The position numbers and the translations under genes were made by a program. Shown in pieces: positions 11,439 through 54,264 of a stretch of DNA of 64,000 nucleotides (positions within the stretch are counted from its first letter, which is position 1; every line of letters begins with the position of its first letter). The notes beneath the pieces were generated by a model, which was not told the origin of the DNA, ran no database searches, and saw only the letters and a list, made by a program, of their open reading frames with translations. The stretch is from assembly GCF_008086205.1 (NCBI RefSeq), contig NZ_VSKK01000001.1, positions 1,860,001 to 1,924,000 on the forward strand, given 5' to 3'. This DNA comes from Bizionia myxarmorum. GTDB lineage: Bacteria > Bacteroidota > Bacteroidia > Flavobacteriales > Flavobacteriaceae.

Positions 11439-12764
11439 TTACTCTGGGGTAATTTTGCGAATTTTGTTATTATTTCTATCCGAAACATAAAGATTGTCTT
11501 GGTTATCTATTATTATTTTAAGAGGGAAATAAAATTGAGCACTTGCTCCTATTCCGTCTGTATAACCTGGGGAGCTACCAGCTATGGTACTAACAAGACC
11601 ACTAGGCGTGATTTTTCGAATTCTGTGATTATAGCTGTCTGCTATATAAAGGTTGCCTTGACTATCCAAAGTTATTCCAATTGGAATATAAAATTGTGCA
11701 TCAATTCCCGTTCCATCTGCATTACCTTCGATACTTCCAGCTATAGTCGTAACTTCACCACTTGAGTTGATTTTTCGTATTTTATGATTACCAGAATCAG
11801 CTATGTAAAGATTTCCTTGGCTATCTGCGGTTATTTCTTGTGGACCATAAAATTGTGCGTTAGTTCCTGTTCCATCCGTATCACCAGGATTACTACCTGC
11901 TACTGTACTAACCATCCCATTTTGGGTGACTTTGCGAATTTTATTGTTACGATTATCCGCTACATAGAGATTGTCTTGATTATCAACAGTTATTCCTGTC
12001 GGGCCGTAAAATTGCGCATCTGCACCGGTCCCATCAGCGTAGCCAGCTGTATTTCCTGCTAAAGTCGTGACTGCACCATTTGGTGTAATTTTTCGTATTT
12101 TATTATTGTCTCTATCAGCGATATAGAGGTTACCTTGACTATCAATAGCTATTCCTTCTGGAGCATTAAATTGTGCATTAGTACCTGTTCCATCAGCATC
12201 ACCTTCGATACTTCCTGCTATGGTACTTACTGTTCCATTAGGATTTATTTTCCTGATTTTATGATTTTCGGTGTCTGCAATATAAAAGTTTCCTGCATTA
12301 TCGATGGTTATTCCCCTTGGAGAATCAAATTGTGCATCAATACCTGTTCCATCTGCAAAACCATTAGTACTTCCTGCAAACGTACTTACTTGAAATTCTG
12401 AAATAATATACTTAAATTCTGGACCTATTAATTCCGTGCTATTAACCATAACTTTTAACAAGCCAGTATAAGCTCTTGCTGGTACGGCTGCAGTAATTTC
12501 TGTGTTGGTTACTGCTTGGACAGTAGCTTCAACATCGTTAAAATATACGGTAATATTATTAATGTCTGTTCCAAAATGGCTTCCGTTAATAGTAACAACG
12601 GTTCCTTTGGGTCCGCTATCTGGCACCATATTATTTAAGGTTGCTGTTGGAGTAGGCGTTGGTTTTGCATCATCAGCATCATCATCACTACTACAGGCAC
12701 TAAAGATGAAGCCTATTGCTAGCACAACAAATAAAGATTTGAAATTAAATTGTAAACTTTTCAT
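11439..12764 (-). CDS. Surface lipoprotein with IPT/TIG domain and six NHL repeats
   Basis: This is a 441-residue lipoprotein. The leader ends in FSAC followed by SSDDDADD. An IPT/TIG immunoglobulin-like domain lies at about 40-125. Six tandem NHL repeats of 53 residues follow, each built on GxADGTGxxAQFxxPxGI, then NLYIAD and NKIRKI, and together they should close a six-bladed beta-propeller. The DNA repeats (159 bp each) are similar enough to recombine and cause long shadow ORFs on the other strand. Its upstream region carries the 21-bp-spaced direct repeats shared with the 16845 gene and lies the same distance from the start codon. The ligand is unknown. Confidence 0.88.
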   Translation of the reverse strand: MKSLQFNFKSLFVVLAIGFIFSACSSDDDADDAKPTPTPTATLNNMVPDSGPKGTVVTINGSHFGTDINNITVYFNDVEATVQAVTNTEITAAVPARAYTGLLKVMVNSTELIGPEFKYIISEFQVSTFAGSTNGFADGTGIDAQFDSPRGITIDNAGNFYIADTENHKIRKINPNGTVSTIAGSIEGDADGTGTNAQFNAPEGIAIDSQGNLYIADRDNNKIRKITPNGAVTTLAGNTAGYADGTGADAQFYGPTGITVDNQDNLYVADNRNNKIRKVTQNGMVSTVAGSNPGDTDGTGTNAQFYGPQEITADSQGNLYIADSGNHKIRKINSSGEVTTIAGSIEGNADGTGIDAQFYIPIGITLDSQGNLYIADSYNHRIRKITPSGLVSTIAGSSPGYTDGIGASAQFYFPLKIIIDNQDNLYVSDRNNNKIRKITPE

Positions 12765-20265: not shown

Positions 20266-22293
20266 TTAATTATTATAAGTTAAAGTAATTCGTGTTCCTA
20301 ATGAAGTGTCACCCTCTGCCAAGTCTGTTATTTTGAATCGGATATTATGTTCATTTAAATGATTATATAATGTTAACCGGTCTTGTACAATTGTTGTACC
20401 CATAGATTCATGCAGCTTTTTCTTTTTAGCACTTTCCTTTCTACCTATGCCATTATCCTCAATAATTATTTTTAAATTTCGGGTTGTATCAAATATAATA
20501 TCCAATTTTTTATGGGCTTTTAAGCTGGGCTGAAGACCATGCCAAATAGCATTTTCAACTATTGGTTGTAATAAAAGTGGGGGAATCTCATATTGTGAAA
20601 GTGTTTCTTTTGATTCTACCTGAATGGTGTAATTAAAATTAGGGCCTATTCTACTTTTTTCTATGGAGAGGTATAAATCTAAAATTTCTAATTCTTCTTC
20701 AACTGTAATTTTTTGTCGATTACTGTTTTGTAAAATTCCACGCAGCAGGCTTGAAAAATCGTCGAGATAGGAAATCGCATCATCATTTCGTTGGGTCATT
20801 ATTAAGCTTTTAATAGCGCTCATACTATTAAAGATGAAATGCGGATTCATCTGGGAGCGTAATGCTATCATTTCTGTTTCCCGAATTTTTTGGGTGAAAT
20901 CATCCTTTATTTTTTGCTCCCGTTCTCGTTCTATTTCTGAATACAATTGAATAAGCTCATCCGTCTTTTTTTGAACTTTTCCATCTAATTCTAAATTCAT
21001 GGCTCGCTGTAGCATTTGATTTTCTTGCAACTGTTTTATCAATGCATCGTTAGTTTCCGCTTTTTCTTTCTGAAGTATAAGCACATTTTTGACTAAAGCC
21101 AAGGAGAAGCAAAATACTTCGGCTAACAAGCCGATTTGAAATATAATATTTGGTGATTCCTTAAAGTTAAAGAAATGACCAGTAACAAAATGTAAGTTGT
21201 TGTAGGCTATGTAAGTGCTCAATAGCGCACCCACAAAAAAGCAGGTTTGACCTATTATAAAATAATTAAGCAAGGGATGTTTAACTTTATAAATTACCCA
21301 GAAAATAAGAATGAAATTTATAGGAAGTATAATGAATCTGACAATGGTAAAGATTATTACATAGTATTTACCACCCAGTATAAAATAACTAAAAGCTAGA
21401 TTAGTAACGGCGTATACTAAACAAATGATGCCGAGATAATGCAGGGTTTTTGCCAGTAAATGATCATATCTTTTTACTTGTAAAAGTTGCATTATAAATA
21501 GTATATAAAAGCCAATAAATATGAACTGAACGGGTTCAAATAAGTTGTATGCTAGATTTGGTGTGTACTTAAAAAAATTAGGGAACGGTGCTAGAGTATA
21601 ATTAAGCACTAAAAAACCATAGATAATTTGAAAGAACAAATAACCTATATAGTACAGGTAGAGTTTTTTATTTAAACGAAACCAAAACACTAAAGAAAAA
21701 ACAAGGATGGTGGCAAGAGCAATAATATAAAAGTAAATAAAACCAATGGAATTTTGTTGGTCGTTATACATACTTGAAACAGATTTCCAATATCCTATTT
21801 CCGAGTAAATAGCCGGCGTTTGATGTGCTTTTACTCTTTTAATATCCATTCGGACATATATTTGAGATTTTTGAAACGGTGGAACAATTACCTCCGTAAA
21901 AACTCGTTCTTTTTTATTGGTACGTTCTGTTAAGGGTATATGCAAACCATTTTTGAAATTTTTATAGTCCTTGTTTATTTGCTGATAAATAAGCGTATAC
22001 GCATGGTCACTAAACAGGTAGACTGAAATCGTATCCTTGGAGCTATTTTCAATTTCAAATTTTAGCCAAAGAGATTTTTCTATAGATGCCGTATAACTTG
22101 CATCATAAGGTTTCCAAATGGTTTGTTCTTGTATTTCCTTAAAAGTGCTGCTTTTGTCAGTGCGGATTGCCGTTACATGTTTATTGTTAATTAATTCCAG
22201 TTTAATTGGAATAGAATCGGCCATAACTTGCCCAAAGAGTGGCGTAAACCCAAAAGAAAGAAAACAAATAACTAAAGTGATGGTTTTGATCAT
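20266..22293 (-). CDS. LytS-type sensor histidine kinase with 7TMR-DISM sensor
   Basis: This is a 675-residue membrane kinase. It has a signal peptide (1-22), an extracytoplasmic 7TMR-DISM domain (about 30-175) and seven membrane helices (about 185-400). A coiled coil (about 405-465) leads to a HisKA-type LytS core with the phosphoacceptor His in LRSQMNPHFIFNSM. The ATPase domain has VENAIWHGLQ (N-box) and IIEDNGIGRKES. 7TMR-DISM receptors are thought to sense small extracellular carbohydrates or peptides, which would suit control of surface lipoproteins. It phosphorylates the LytTR regulator encoded immediately downstream. A repeat motif like that of the proposed targets lies 47-75 bases upstream, suggesting autoregulation. 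Confidence 0.93.
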   Translation of the reverse strand: MIKTITLVICFLSFGFTPLFGQVMADSIPIKLELINNKHVTAIRTDKSSTFKEIQEQTIWKPYDASYTASIEKSLWLKFEIENSSKDTISVYLFSDHAYTLIYQQINKDYKNFKNGLHIPLTERTNKKERVFTEVIVPPFQKSQIYVRMDIKRVKAHQTPAIYSEIGYWKSVSSMYNDQQNSIGFIYFYIIALATILVFSLVFWFRLNKKLYLYYIGYLFFQIIYGFLVLNYTLAPFPNFFKYTPNLAYNLFEPVQFIFIGFYILFIMQLLQVKRYDHLLAKTLHYLGIICLVYAVTNLAFSYFILGGKYYVIIFTIVRFIILPINFILIFWVIYKVKHPLLNYFIIGQTCFFVGALLSTYIAYNNLHFVTGHFFNFKESPNIIFQIGLLAEVFCFSLALVKNVLILQKEKAETNDALIKQLQENQMLQRAMNLELDGKVQKKTDELIQLYSEIEREREQKIKDDFTQKIRETEMIALRSQMNPHFIFNSMSAIKSLIMTQRNDDAISYLDDFSSLLRGILQNSNRQKITVEEELEILDLYLSIEKSRIGPNFNYTIQVESKETLSQYEIPPLLLQPIVENAIWHGLQPSLKAHKKLDIIFDTTRNLKIIIEDNGIGRKESAKKKKLHESMGTTIVQDRLTLYNHLNEHNIRFKITDLAEGDTSLGTRITLTYNN

Positions 22294-31748: not shown

Positions 31749-31803
31749 TTAGGTATTAGGTATTAGGTATTAGGTATTAGGTATTAGGTATTAGGTATTA
31801 GGT
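31749..31803. repeat. Heptamer array TTAGGTA, about 7.9 copies
   Basis: Seven exact copies (31749-31797) and a six-base partial copy, starting six bases upstream of the fused gldFG start codon. The array occupies the ribosome-binding and leader region, so changes in copy number would alter the leader of that gene. Confidence 0.9.
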
Positions 31804-31856: not shown

Positions 31857-31905
31857 TTCTCTATTCTCTATTCTCTATTCTCTATTCTCTATTCTCTATT
31901 CTCTA
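31857..31905. repeat. Heptamer array TTCTCTA, seven exact copies
   Basis: Seven head-to-tail TTCTCTA units. The TAG stop of the monooxygenase gene (31903-31905 on the minus strand) lies within the last unit. Confidence 0.9.
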
Positions 31906-32199
31906 TTGAAGCGATTCTAATTTGTCCACACTCCAGGCTTCCGGCTTCATATTAAAAAGTGGTTTCGTAAAAGCCCATACGCCTTTAAAGAGCTCCGAAT
32001 GTCTGTAGTTTTCTAAATCCGCTTCGCTTTGCCAATAACTATACGTGAAAAACACGCTTGTATTGTTTTTATCACGATATAATTCTAAAAATTCACAACC
32101 TTTAAAATTCCGAATGGCATTTTTGTTTTTATGAAAATTCTCTAAAAAAGTTTCAATGTGTTGGTCTTCAAAACCAAGTTTTACAATACGTACAAGCAT
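31903..32199 (-). CDS. Putative antibiotic biosynthesis monooxygenase (ABM) domain protein
   Basis: This is a 98-residue single-domain protein of the ABM/quinol monooxygenase-like family. It has the dimeric alpha-beta barrel layout, with LVRIVKLGFEDQH, then KGCEFLELYRDKNN, then SYWQSEADLENYRHSELF. It has no cofactor site of its own, and family members oxidise quinones or degrade heme-like rings only in a few tested cases. Two bases separate it from the SAM hydroxide adenosyltransferase gene, so they share a transcript. The stop codon is inside a microsatellite, so copy-number change could alter the C-terminus. Confidence 0.8.
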   Translation of the reverse strand: MLVRIVKLGFEDQHIETFLENFHKNKNAIRNFKGCEFLELYRDKNNTSVFFTYSYWQSEADLENYRHSELFKGVWAFTKPLFNMKPEAWSVDKLESLQ

Positions 32200-40870: not shown

Positions 40871-41626
40871 ATGGCAAAGAATAACTGGACAAGAGAAGAA
40901 ACTATTGTAGCCTTTAATGTGTATTGTAAAATCCCATTTAAAAGCAGCAGTAAATCCAATCCAACAGTAATAAAATATGCCAATATTATTGGAAGATCGC
41001 CTTCGGCATTAAATATGAAAATCGGTAATTTCGGAAGACTTGACCCAGAGTTGAAGAAAAAAGGAATTACAGGTTTAATCAACGGCAGTAAACTGGAAGA
41101 AGTTGTTTGGAATGAATTCAATGGAAATTGGGAAAGATTAGCTTATGAAAGTGAAGAATTAATTGCCAAGTTTCAAAATAAGGAAATTGAAGAAATTAGT
41201 TTTGAAAATTTTCCAAAGGGTAAAGAAAGAGAAACTACTATAAAGGCAAGGGTTAATCAAAGTTTTTTTAGAAGTACTATTTTATCCTCATATAATCTAA
41301 AGTGTTGCATTACGGGTCTTTCCATTCCAGATTTTTTAGTTGCAAGTCATATTAAACCCTGGTCAAAAGATATTGATAATCGAACAAATCCTCACAATGG
41401 ATTATGTTTGAACTCAATACATGATAAAGCGTTCGATAAAGGCTTTATAACTGTAACTCCTGATTTCAAAGTAAACGTTTCAAAGTACTTTGATGATTAT
41501 TCTAATGATAAATCTGTAAATGATTTCTTTATAAAGTATAACACACAAAGTATTTTAAAGCCTGAAAGATTTTTACCTAAAAAAGAATTTTTAGATTATC
41601 ATTTCCAAAATATATTTATCAAATGA
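40871..41626 (+). CDS. HNH endonuclease (restriction-type)
   Basis: This is a 251-residue protein. The N-terminal half has a TREETIVAFNVYCKIPF motif typical of a family of putative HNH restriction endonucleases. The C-terminal HNH_2 domain (about residues 125-215) has CCITGLSIPDFLVASHIKPW and RTNPHNGLCLNSIHDKAFDKGF, supplying the His, Asn and His of the active site. Expected role: cutting foreign DNA, though self-targeting or accessory nuclease roles cannot be excluded. No methyltransferase gene is intact nearby. Its stop overlaps the start of the next small gene in ATGA. It lies on a lower-GC island. Confidence 0.82.
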   Translation: MAKNNWTREETIVAFNVYCKIPFKSSSKSNPTVIKYANIIGRSPSALNMKIGNFGRLDPELKKKGITGLINGSKLEEVVWNEFNGNWERLAYESEELIAKFQNKEIEEISFENFPKGKERETTIKARVNQSFFRSTILSSYNLKCCITGLSIPDFLVASHIKPWSKDIDNRTNPHNGLCLNSIHDKAFDKGFITVTPDFKVNVSKYFDDYSNDKSVNDFFIKYNTQSILKPERFLPKKEFLDYHFQNIFIK

Positions 41627-41871
41627 ATACGTTTCAAAATATAAATACAGATTATATCAAATCTTCAAGGTCAATAGAAACTGTCCTTGTATCAAATGAA
41701 AATTTAAAGAAGCTTTTCTTCATCTATAATTATGAAGGAAATTCATTTAGAGTGTTTGAAAACCATTTAGATTTAATCAACTTCTTTCAAAATAAAGCTG
41801 AATGCAACTTTCACTTTAATTCAGAAATCGAACTTGATTCCTTTCTTTCCAAAGTGAAAATTGCTAATTAA
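41623..41871 (+). CDS. Small protein coupled to the HNH endonuclease, unknown function
   Basis: This is an 82-residue protein whose ATG overlaps the HNH stop (ATGA). It looks mixed alpha/beta and polar, with no motif I know: FFIYNYEGNSFRVFENHLDLINFFQNK, then a tail rich in Phe, Glu and Asp. Strict translational coupling suggests a functional partner of the nuclease (an immunity, specificity or regulatory protein). This is inference from position only. Confidence 0.62.
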   Translation: MNTFQNINTDYIKSSRSIETVLVSNENLKKLFFIYNYEGNSFRVFENHLDLINFFQNKAECNFHFNSEIELDSFLSKVKIAN

Positions 41872-41969
41872 AATGTCCCCTTATTAGTTATACATAATTC
41901 CCTACCCATAGCTACTCTTAAAAGTTAATTCACTACATTTATTTGTATTAACATCTAAAAATCAACACT

Positions 41970-42701
41970 ATGGCTTCAACATCAGAAGTAGGACACGCAA
42001 AAAATGTAGCAAACTTTCAAGACCTTATAGCCTTCGTCAACGGCTATGGTCCAACCTATAACCCAACAAAAAACAGTCTGCTACTACCACAACTGGAAAC
42101 ACTGTATACCAATTCAGAAACCAGTTTAAATAACGTTTTAACTAAAAACACAGACTTTAATAACATCATTAATCAACGCCTGGATGCCTTTGCAAATTTA
42201 CGTTCCCTTTCCACCCGATTAATAAGTGCATTAGAAACCACCAATGCCACAGACGAGATAATTAAAGACGCTAAAAGTTTCAACAGAAAACTACAAGGAA
42301 AAAGAGCCTCCAAAATAGAACAACCCACAGACCCAAACCAACCGGCACCCAAAACAATCAGCTCCAGCCAACAATCCTATGACCAGCTTATTCAGCATTT
42401 TGAAGGCCTCATTTCAGTTTTACAATCAGAACCAAGTTACGCACCCAACGAAACAGACCTGCAAGTAGCAACACTGCAAACACAACTTCAAGACCTAAAA
42501 GACAAAAATAAACAAGTATCAAACGCCTATGCCCAAGTAAGCAAAGCCCGTCTAGAAAGAAACAAGGTATTATATGAAGCAGAAACGAGTTTGGTAAACA
42601 CCGCAGCAGAAGTGAAAAAATACGTCAAATCCGTTTACGGAGCAACCAGCCCAGAATTTGGTCAAATAACAATAATAAAATTCACAAAGAAAAAAGATTA
42701 G
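41970..42701 (+). CDS. Bacteroidota helical-repeat protein of unknown function (243 aa)
   Basis: This is a 243-residue, probably all-helical protein. It consists of two similar halves: FQDLIAFVNGYGPTYNPTKN (about 16-35) resembles FEGLISVLQSEPSYAPNETD in the second half, and each is followed by three helices of similar length. A Pro/Asn/Gln linker (about 117-135) joins them. The C-terminus has YVKSVYGATSPEFGQI and a basic tail. There is no signal peptide or membrane segment. I recall members of this family as common in Bacteroidota with no known function. The coding strand is unusually rich in A and C (many ACA, CAA, AAC codons), unlike the neighbours. A 21-bp repeat array lies directly downstream. 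Confidence 0.72.
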   Translation: MASTSEVGHAKNVANFQDLIAFVNGYGPTYNPTKNSLLLPQLETLYTNSETSLNNVLTKNTDFNNIINQRLDAFANLRSLSTRLISALETTNATDEIIKDAKSFNRKLQGKRASKIEQPTDPNQPAPKTISSSQQSYDQLIQHFEGLISVLQSEPSYAPNETDLQVATLQTQLQDLKDKNKQVSNAYAQVSKARLERNKVLYEAETSLVNTAAEVKKYVKSVYGATSPEFGQITIIKFTKKKD

Positions 42702-42744
42702 CAAAACACCAAATTAAAAACCCCTAATCCTTTTAAAAAAATAT

Positions 42745-42779
42745 CCAATTGCAGTCCAATATACCGGCACGGCAATTGG
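42745..42779. repeat. Inverted repeat before the array
   Basis: CCAATTGC (42745-42752) and GCAATTGG (42772-42779) are perfect 8-bp inverted repeats around a 19-base loop. Confidence 0.7.
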
Positions 42780-42810
42780 AAATTTAATTGCTGAAAATAG
42801 AAATAGCCCT

Positions 42811-43062
42811 CCCGCATTTAGAAATAACGCTCCCGCATTTAGAAATATCTCTCCCGCATTTAGAAATATCTCTCCCACATTTAGAAATATCGCGCCCGTA
42901 TTTAGAAATATTAAACCCGCATTTAGAATTATCGCTCCCTCATTTAGAATTATCGCTCCCGCATTTAGAAATATTGCTCCCGTATTTAGAATTTTCCCTC
43001 CCGCATTTAGAAATATTGCTCCCGTATTTAGAATTATCCCTCCCGCATTTAGAATACTGGCA
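42811..43062. repeat. Twelve-unit tandem array of a 21-bp repeat
   Basis: Units begin at 42811 and every 21 bases thereafter, with no insertion or deletion in 252 bp. The core CCCNNATTTAGAA is conserved, and most change is in the last eight bases. Because 21 is a multiple of three, several frames stay open. The best two read LPHLEIS and PAFRNIS repeats, but neither has a convincing ATG start: the first is blocked by a TAA just before a TTG, the second has no start codon after a stop at 42715. Protein coding is therefore unproven. It is not a CRISPR array, since there are no unique spacers. Confidence 0.93.
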
Positions 43063-43262
43063 ACGGCAAAACAAAAAATGAAACCAATATAAAAACCACT
43101 GATAATTTAAACCATATTTAAAATAGCAGCAGGCTAATACCTAATAAAACAAAGCAAATTAAGCCATATCATCTGCAACAAATTAAAAACTGATACTATT
43201 TTATGGAAAATACTACCCACTTTATTAACTTTACAAAATACCTATCTAACTAAAATAATACC

Positions 43263-44036
43263 ATGGATATTAAACTTGCAGTGTTAATTGATGGCGACAA
43301 TATTCCGTCTGCCTACGTAAAAGAAATGATGGAAGAAATTGCCAAATACGGCAACCCAACCATTAAACGTATTTATGGCGATTGGACCAAACCACACCTT
43401 TCCAAATGGAAAAACATGCTGCTTGAAAATGCCATTACACCCATTCAACAATATGGTTACACCACTGGAAAGAATGCCACAGATAGCGCCATGATTATTG
43501 ATGCTATGGATATTCTTTACAGTGAAAAAGTAAACGGTTTTTGCCTGGTTTCTAGTGATAGTGATTTTACGCGTTTGGCAACCAGACTGCGTGAAGCCGG
43601 AATGCAAGTGTATGGAATAGGTGAAAAGAAAACGCCAAAACCCTTTATTGTAGCCTGTGATAAATTCATCTACATTGAAATTTTAAAACAAGCCTCCACA
43701 AACACCGATTCGGATTTGGATTCAGAAGATGACAAAAAAGTCAAAAAAGATTCTTACGATAAAATTACCGCCAAGGATATTCAATTTATATCCCAAACCA
43801 TAGAAGATTTGGCCGATGATGATGGTTGGGCCTTTTTAGGAGATGTTGGTAGTTTACTTCAAAAGAAACAACCAAACTTCGATTCGCGTAACTATGGTTT
43901 CGCAAAACTAACGCCGTTAATTAATTCCATTGACGATTTCGAAATTGATAAGCGCGAAAGTGGAAATGGCCGTTTCAAGCTCGTGTACGTGCGCATTGAT
44001 GAAAAAAAACCAAAGCAGCGTTCCCGAAGAAAGTAA
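43263..44036 (+). CDS. NYN-domain protein with C-terminal OST-HTH/LOTUS domain
   Basis: This is a 257-residue protein. The N-terminal NYN (LabA/DUF88-like) domain shows the acidic nuclease residues in LIDGDNIPSAYV, in GKNATDSAMIIDAMD and in VSSDSDFTRLA. The fold is a PIN-like RNase. A charged linker (about 140-165) leads to a winged-helix OST-HTH (LOTUS) domain, with WAFLGDVGSLLQKKQPNFDSRNYGF, that binds RNA. It probably cleaves or processes RNA in the cytoplasm. It stands alone after the repeat array. A link to the array is suggested only by position. Confidence 0.86.
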   Translation: MDIKLAVLIDGDNIPSAYVKEMMEEIAKYGNPTIKRIYGDWTKPHLSKWKNMLLENAITPIQQYGYTTGKNATDSAMIIDAMDILYSEKVNGFCLVSSDSDFTRLATRLREAGMQVYGIGEKKTPKPFIVACDKFIYIEILKQASTNTDSDLDSEDDKKVKKDSYDKITAKDIQFISQTIEDLADDDGWAFLGDVGSLLQKKQPNFDSRNYGFAKLTPLINSIDDFEIDKRESGNGRFKLVYVRIDEKKPKQRSRRK

Positions 44037-52785: not shown

Positions 52786-52820
52786 ACTGAACACTGAACA
52801 CTGAACACTGAACACTGAAC
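52786..52820. repeat. Heptamer array ACTGAAC, five copies
   Basis: Five exact head-to-tail units lie in the 136-base gap between the biotin carboxylase stop (52822-52824) and the carboxyltransferase start. The TAG stop begins two bases after the last unit. Further upstream, GCACAAAGGTGCAAAG is another simple repeat. Confidence 0.9.
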
Positions 52821-52821
52821 A

Positions 52822-54264
52822 CTACTTCACTGGTATTCGTAATAATTTTTGTTCAGCCATATAATGCTTAACTGCAATCATAGCCGCTAATTTGGCTTCT
52901 GCTTCTTGTTCGTCTTTGAGCGCTTCAGGTGAATAATATTTTTTCACAAAATGGGTGTCGAAATTACCGGAACGAAAAGCATCATGCTTAAAAACAAAGG
53001 TTCCGAAGGGTAAAGTTGTTTCAATTCCTTGAATATGATAATCGGCAATGGCAGAAATCATCAATTCGATAGCTTCTTCGCGTGTTTTGCCGTAAGTGAT
53101 AAGTTTTGCCAGCATCGGATCATAATAAATAGGGACATCCATACCTTCTACAAAACCATTATCTACACGAATGCCCGGTCCTTCAGGAAGTTTATAAACT
53201 TCTAAATTACCAACGCTGGGCAGGAAATCATTTAAAGGATCTTCGGCATACACACGCAATTCTAATGCATGACCGGTAATTTTTAAATCGGTTTGTTTGA
53301 TGGCTAATTCTTCACCACGAGCCACCCTAATTTGTAGTTCTACCAAATCTGTTCCACTAATTAATTCAGTCACGGGATGTTCTACTTGCAAACGCGTATT
53401 CATTTCTAAAAAGTAGAAATTATGTTTTTCATCCAATAGAAATTCTACCGTTCCAGCGCCTAAATAATTACAGGCCTTGGCCACTTTTATGGCGGCTTCA
53501 CCCATTTCATTTCGTAGTTCAGGAGTTAATACAGATGATGGTGCTTCTTCTACTACTTTTTGATGGCGACGTTGAATACTACATTCACGTTCAAAAAGAT
53601 GTATAATATTGCCATGAGAATCTGCCATAATTTGAATTTCAATATGACGAGGTGAGCTCACATATTTTTCAATAAAAACCGATCCATCACCAAAAGCATT
53701 TACGGCTTCACTAATGGCACGATCCATTTGCGATTCGAAATCGGATTCTTTTTCAACAATTCGCATGCCTTTTCCGCCACCACCAGCGGAGGCTTTTATT
53801 AGAATTGGAAACCCAATTTCTTTGGCTATTTTTTTTGCAGCAGGAATATCCGTAATGGCTTCTTCCGTTCCTGGAACCATAGGAATGTTGTAATGTTTAA
53901 CGGCTTCTTTAGCTGCTAATTTACTTCCCATAACGCGAATGGCATCCGATTTCGGACCAATAAAAATGATATTATTGGCTTCACAAAGTTCTGCGAATTC
54001 TGCATTTTCTGATAAAAATCCATATCCAGGATGAATGGCATCTACGTTAAGACTTTTTGCGACTTCAATAATTTTATCGCCTTTTAAATACGATTGATTG
54101 GAAGGTGCTTCACCAATTAAAACGGCTTCATCAGCATATTTCACATGTGGTGCATTCCGATCAGCTGTGGAAAAAACAGCAACCGTTTTAATGCCCATTT
54201 TTTTAGCGGTTCGCATCACGCGAATGGCAATTTCTCCTCTATTTGCTATAAGTATTTTTTTCAT
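52822..54264 (-). CDS. accC: Biotin carboxylase subunit of acyl-CoA carboxylase
   Basis: This carboxylates biotin with bicarbonate and ATP. I start it at ATG 54264 ([15 protein letters not shown]), six bases inside the longest frame. Markers are the N-terminal [15 protein letters not shown], the [10 protein letters not shown] glycine-rich loop (about 161-170), the [12 protein letters not shown] site, [14 protein letters not shown], and a full C-terminal domain. It sits between the carrier gene (at 54358) and the carboxyltransferase gene on one strand; an 87-base gap and 136-base gap keep them loosely spaced. With the CT subunit it resembles the propionyl-CoA carboxylase alpha subunit split into separate genes. 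Confidence 0.93.

Follow-up and report, generated by a model that had tools for sequence, protein, structure and literature searches.

A gene for a 243-residue basic protein and the array of phased 21-bp repeats adjoining it form one inherited module, and in at least 11 genomes this module occupies the 3′ end of large integron cassettes: after one attC come the cargo genes, then the module gene and its array, and then the next attC. Cassettes that end in this way were seen in Flavobacterium and Epilithonimonas and in some MAGs. The copy in the window, i.e., the 64,000-nucleotide stretch of Bizionia myxarmorum DNA that was analyzed, is best read as another module of this kind that has restriction-type cargo and sits in the chromosome where no attC is recognizable; the integron link is recognizable from the relatives, not from the window alone.

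In the window, the module gene (positions 41970–42701, + strand) encodes a 243-aa protein of pI 8.9 with two helical halves, and a non-coding array on the same strand (42798–43054) follows it. Tandem Repeats Finder described this array as 12.2 copies of a period of 21 with 83% matches and 0% indels, bearing out the first-pass annotation, which had reported a 243-residue gene followed by twelve 21-bp units of unchanged length. The period-21 score was 192.4 for positions 42701–43262, compared to a maximum of 18.8 in 500 mononucleotide shuffles, and the runner-up tiles of the window scored only 60 and 55. The pattern CCCNNATTTAGAA had 14 exact matches in the B. myxarmorum genome, 12 in phase in the window array and 2 elsewhere, and its reversed control pattern had 3. 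An inverted repeat (42739–42785, + strand, two 14-base arms and a 19-base loop) separates gene and array; the terminator scan did not class it as terminator-like and found no + strand terminator in 41800–43300. The window also contains perfect 7-bp microsatellites (31749–31803, 31857–31907, and 52786–52823) and 4.8 copies of a 159-bp tandem repeat (11609–12377). Repeats of 7 bp were seen near several module-gene homologs too, e.g., at loci L019 and L042.

No Pfam, NCBIfam, PHROG or PADLOC model matched the 243-aa protein above cut-off or with a convincing E-value. Its AlphaFold2 model, built from a 38-sequence alignment (A1), had a mean pLDDT of 88.9 and a pTM of 0.77 and shows two halves with eight helices in total, joined by a linker of low confidence (residues ~110–130). 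The earlier label of a helical-repeat protein did not survive this model, which has no solenoid, and no DNA-binding fold was recognized in it. The homologs have a median pI of 9.2 (range 5.4–9.7, n = 50).

The distribution of the module gene is sporadic. Counting the B. myxarmorum genome each time, homologs were found in 3/99 relatives, in 14/397 genomes of the family, and in 9/395 genomes across the phylum. Some genomes carry multiple copies; the highest number of matches in a single genome was 11, counting fragments. A scan of named genomes yielded 54 loci, from Flavobacterium, Aequorivita, Kaistella, Epilithonimonas, Chitinophagaceae, and others. No match was found in 72,556 plasmid records. 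Five congeners do not have the module gene: in one (G004, locus L085), the homology of the two flanking genes is 76 bp apart, against ~2.6 kb in the window, and the remaining four hold other DNA between the flanking positions. A paralog on contig C19 of the B. myxarmorum genome (68% identity) has its own array and is preceded by three same-strand genes; its 5′ leader and that of the window gene (41939–41969) both contain ATTAACATCTAAAAATCAACA right before the start codon. One record labeled as a Neisseriaceae MAG (L053) holds a Bacteroidota-type module with secreted-protein cargo, and its bin label may therefore be wrong.

The first-pass annotation had regarded the gene and the array as a pair, and the homologs strongly support this. 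We scored 82 homolog entries for arrays, the window included, leaving out duplicates (L016, L020, and L022), entries whose contig ends inside the gene (L073 and L074), entries without an alignment (L143 and L098), and the fragments from G488, and keeping the near-identical entries L127/L023, L035/L036, L037–L039, and L070/L072. A period-21 array lies downstream of the gene in 61/82 entries and only upstream in 3 more (L021, L094, and L095). No array was found in 17/82; three of these are truncated genes (L048, L063, and L076) and seven are ~275–315-aa forms from G528, G718, and G736. Locus L017 has a 7/14-bp repeat upstream of the gene. As to array copies at unrelated places, which would have spoken against the pairing, a single orphan was found, on contig C14 of the B. 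myxarmorum genome (C14:151889–152102; L102, L109). It has about ten units, is 77% identical to the window array, and no module-gene homolog was found in the 12 kb around it. A weak attC-like match (27 bits) lies ~1.4 kb upstream of this orphan.

The units differ between species, yet a common motif, approximately CaaCCgCAattAgAAtTaTag, was found in 58 non-redundant arrays, with a relative entropy of 5.20 bits, against 1.75 ± 0.10 (at most 2.02) when the columns were shuffled 100 times. The units have two conserved blocks, CCGC and AGAAATAT, ~10 bp apart. Unit length is rarely altered, a lag of 19, 20, 22 or 23 being preferred in 7/2078 windows and 3/64 arrays. Relative to the stop codon, the motif phase in the 55 downstream arrays was 2 in 23, 5 in 8, 1 in 6, and 11 in 6, so that 37/55 were in phase 1, 2 or 5. 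The more identical two proteins are, the more similar are their units (50 loci, Mantel r 0.67, 0/999 permutations as high); common descent alone could give such a correlation.

No reading frame was consistently stop-free across the arrays tested, and most arrays have stops in every frame; the suggestion that the array might encode a heptad peptide was thus abandoned, as no frame is kept open across relatives. The mean fold z-scores of 56 arrays were nearly equal on the top (−1.08) and bottom (−1.14) strands, which argues that the arrays have no strand-specific RNA structure. TAnnTTTG, the Bacteroidota −7 promoter element, is found up to 80 bp upstream of the gene start in 18/56 loci, where 2.3 are expected, and in the first 120 bp past the stop codon in 2/56, where 2.8 are expected, i.e., no promoter signal was found between gene and array. 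Sigma-70-like matches are present inside the window array, which may therefore be transcribed. Hairpins lie between gene and array at many loci. An Rfam scan of 8 loci gave no match in the module and two matches far from it, both in L056. The 21-bp units are contiguous, with no spacers of the kind found in a CRISPR array.

In pairwise comparisons of the loci, homology was limited to a segment from about −45 bp to +300–500 bp around the gene. Elements of ~130 bp recur on several Flavobacterium contigs; they have matching ends, such as GCCTAAC...GTTAGGC, and complementary arms, and we read them, from their sequence, as putative attC sites. A covariance model built on 13 such sites gave 84 matches over 69 sources, 124 over 16, and 92 over 24, and 3 to 116 matches per genome when run on 12 genomes. 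At L167 and L169, such sites come after a tyrosine-recombinase gene, and integrase-type tyrosine-recombinase genes were counted in 9/12 genomes examined, by reading of the match table. The TIGR02249 model stayed below cut-off in 12/12 genomes and rang in 14/14 controls; NF040815 ('tyrosine recombinase/integron integrase') was above cut-off for the B. myxarmorum protein and L169 and below it for L167. The flavobacterial loci L167, L169, and L170 and genomes G811–G827 encode XerA/integron-type tyrosine recombinases of 347–375 aa with an extra N-terminal part, and their contigs often end inside an attC-like site.

A similar recombinase is encoded on C14 of the B. myxarmorum genome (L170:8863–9990), with two attC-like sites of a second type after it. 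This type, which contains GTGTATAAAAAATGCTTATTTTAGTGCTTAA, was seen at L023:5557–5689, L025:7137–7225, L170:10891–11007, and L170:11298–11415, and in L023 and L025 it lies 3′ of the array. The window has no copy of it. No attC was found in the window either, where the best match of the model (15.9 bits, E 0.41) was at 22009–22116, and none was detected at many homolog loci, the window's among them.

The relation between the module and cassette size was measured over 221 intervals that run from one attC to the next in the loci retrieved, 19 with and 202 without the module. All 19 module intervals exceed 2.5 kb (range 2.8–9.7 kb, median 4.65 kb), compared to 4/202 of the others (median 0.74 kb), a contrast in length with a Mann–Whitney p of 4e-13 and a Fisher p of 7e-24, both uncorrected for relatedness. 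The 19 come from 11 genomes, with seven from F. croceum and three from F. gelidilacus; L035 and L036 are near-identical, and L188 contributes two, one with a partial gene. The count leaves out eight loci with single or duplicate contigs and two weak sites in L053. As contigs were picked for the module or for dense attC, the module's share of the large intervals (19/23) is inflated, while the length contrast is not. The four other intervals that exceed 2.5 kb have no module, so a cassette can be large in its absence.

The module's position in these cassettes is regular. The gene points towards the following attC in 19/19 intervals, and the protein match ends 153–388 bp before that attC in 17/19, the exceptions being L049, where another gene lies between, and L063, where the gene is truncated. 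An array was detected in 16/19 module intervals, ending 7–64 bp before the attC (model R1) in 15/16 and 140 bp before it in L053; the array threshold was also passed by 3/202 non-module intervals, with weak scores of 34–48. In 11 loci searched with E up to 10, no convincing attC was found at the junction of cargo and module, the sole + strand match scoring 10.9 bits (E 6.2).

Without the module, the cargo measures 1.8–8.8 kb (median 3.6 kb), and the longest ORF exceeds 500 aa in 12/19 module intervals compared to 10/202 others. Among the cargo genes are those for type I/IIG restriction-modification systems, GmrSD/HNH and BsuBI/PstI-type endonucleases, and secreted proteins; we claim no enrichment of the cargo for defense, since defense families were found downstream as well. 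In the window, the module is preceded on the + strand by a gene for a 251-aa HNH restriction-type endonuclease (40871–41626; Pfam HNH_2, 3.8e-13; PADLOC HNH model PDLC04132, 3.7e-92), which we infer to be the positional counterpart of cassette cargo, and by an 82-aa ORF (41623–41871, + strand) that overlaps the HNH gene by 4 bases and has no family match above cut-off.

As to function, duplex DNA rather than RNA is favored, indirectly, as the working form of the array, because of the two-turn phasing, the presence of arrays on either side of the gene, and the lack of coding capacity and of strand-specific structure; the missing promoter signal between gene and array points the same way. Our tentative model has the basic protein, with its two helical bundles, bind the array in the form of phased duplex DNA; the resulting complex would help large cassettes to recombine or persist. 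About one monomer would bind each 21-bp unit, as the two-half basic protein and the two conserved blocks a turn apart suggest, with each of the two similar halves facing one of the unit's helical turns. The outcome would be a regular nucleoprotein stretch of ~24 helical turns abutting the attC, comparable to the accessory sites that wrap beside Xer recombination sites. Because the array abuts the attC and the module is restricted to large cassettes, this accessory complex might help a long cassette to join attC recombination, or prevent its loss. A bolder and more doubtful form of the idea is that large cassettes bear their own mobility or maintenance machine, in which a DNA-wrapping protein and a 12-unit, 24-turn array docked at the attC would enable operon-sized capture, e.g., of restriction-modification systems, and the excised circle would possibly replicate or segregate via the array.

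Replication or partition could also be the module's main role, with the protein as initiator or centromere binder and the array as origin or centromere of the excised large cassette circle. Iterons are typically ~19–22 bp, and an iteron-like system would account for a gene adjoining direct repeats of two helical turns, for a basic protein with two similar halves, and for a self-contained unit of mobile habit. However, the protein model is all-helical, no Pfam or NCBIfam replication or partition family matched above cut-off, and the 72,556 plasmid records held no match, so we consider this reading unlikely. It is quite improbable that the module is a toxin–antitoxin-like addiction unit, in which a toxic protein restrained by the repeat RNA fixes costly cargo in the integron. 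This would explain the linkage to cargo, a gene with short tandem repeats does resemble type III toxin–antitoxin loci, and the window array has sigma-70-like matches; yet the repeats are mostly 3′ of the gene (61/82, upstream only in 3), there is no strand-specific folding over the 56 arrays (mean z −1.08 and −1.14), TAnnTTTG is not enriched after the stop codon (2/56 vs 2.8), and the protein has no PADLOC match below E 0.035.

Similarly improbable is a regulatory or insulating element, where protein and array would silence or insulate the cassette or its neighbors. The promoter element often found upstream of the gene (18/56 vs 2.3 expected) and the gene–array hairpins at many loci fit such a role, which nevertheless leaves the restriction of the module to large cassettes unexplained and does not sit well with arrays upstream of the gene in some loci. 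The array might finally be a passive satellite grown by slippage beside a mobile gene, as its variable copy number and the almost homogeneous arrays of loci such as L056 and L062 would allow. This is very improbable, given that period 21 and the common motif are kept in degenerate arrays across diverged proteins.

If duplex binding by the module protein holds true, the module would be a novel case of a small helical protein matched to a phased DNA array. A gene and array at the end of unusually large cassettes suggest that big cargo is moved or kept with the aid of an as yet undescribed system, and a conserved protein-plus-array module ending cassettes several-fold larger than others would be a first handle on operon-sized integron cargo, defense genes included. 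We found no description of such a gene-plus-array module in the literature searched. Integron cassettes are characterized as mobile, non-replicating, and generally made of one reading frame and an attC, with Bacteroidota named among the phyla with integrons (PMC8618304). A second source reports In0 elements and, for the larger of its data sets, a single complete integron from the Bacteroidetes, in Salinibacter (PMC9024848).

Three known systems resemble parts of the module. Type III toxin–antitoxin loci also consist of one gene and a short tandem-repeat array, and there the repeat RNA lies upstream of the toxin gene, whereas the module array is mostly after the gene, gives no RNA structure signal, and accompanies a different protein. 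In the iteron systems of theta plasmids, a protein gene lies beside phased direct repeats of two helical turns, as the module gene does, but the module is chromosomal, its protein is modeled as all-helical, and no replication family matched. PepA and ArgR at cer act at accessory sites of Xer recombination; the module likewise places regular, putatively protein-bindable DNA directly beside a tyrosine-recombinase site, with the differences that it encodes a dedicated protein beside its array and that binding is here a prediction. The closest comparison is with integron gene cassettes themselves. In the relatives, attC sites flank the module, which is oriented as a cassette would be, and candidate tyrosine-recombinase genes of integrase type were counted in 9/12 genomes examined. 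Unlike such cassettes, the window copy has no recognizable attC, and the module cassettes are far larger than their neighbors, carry multi-gene cargo, and share a conserved gene-plus-array end.
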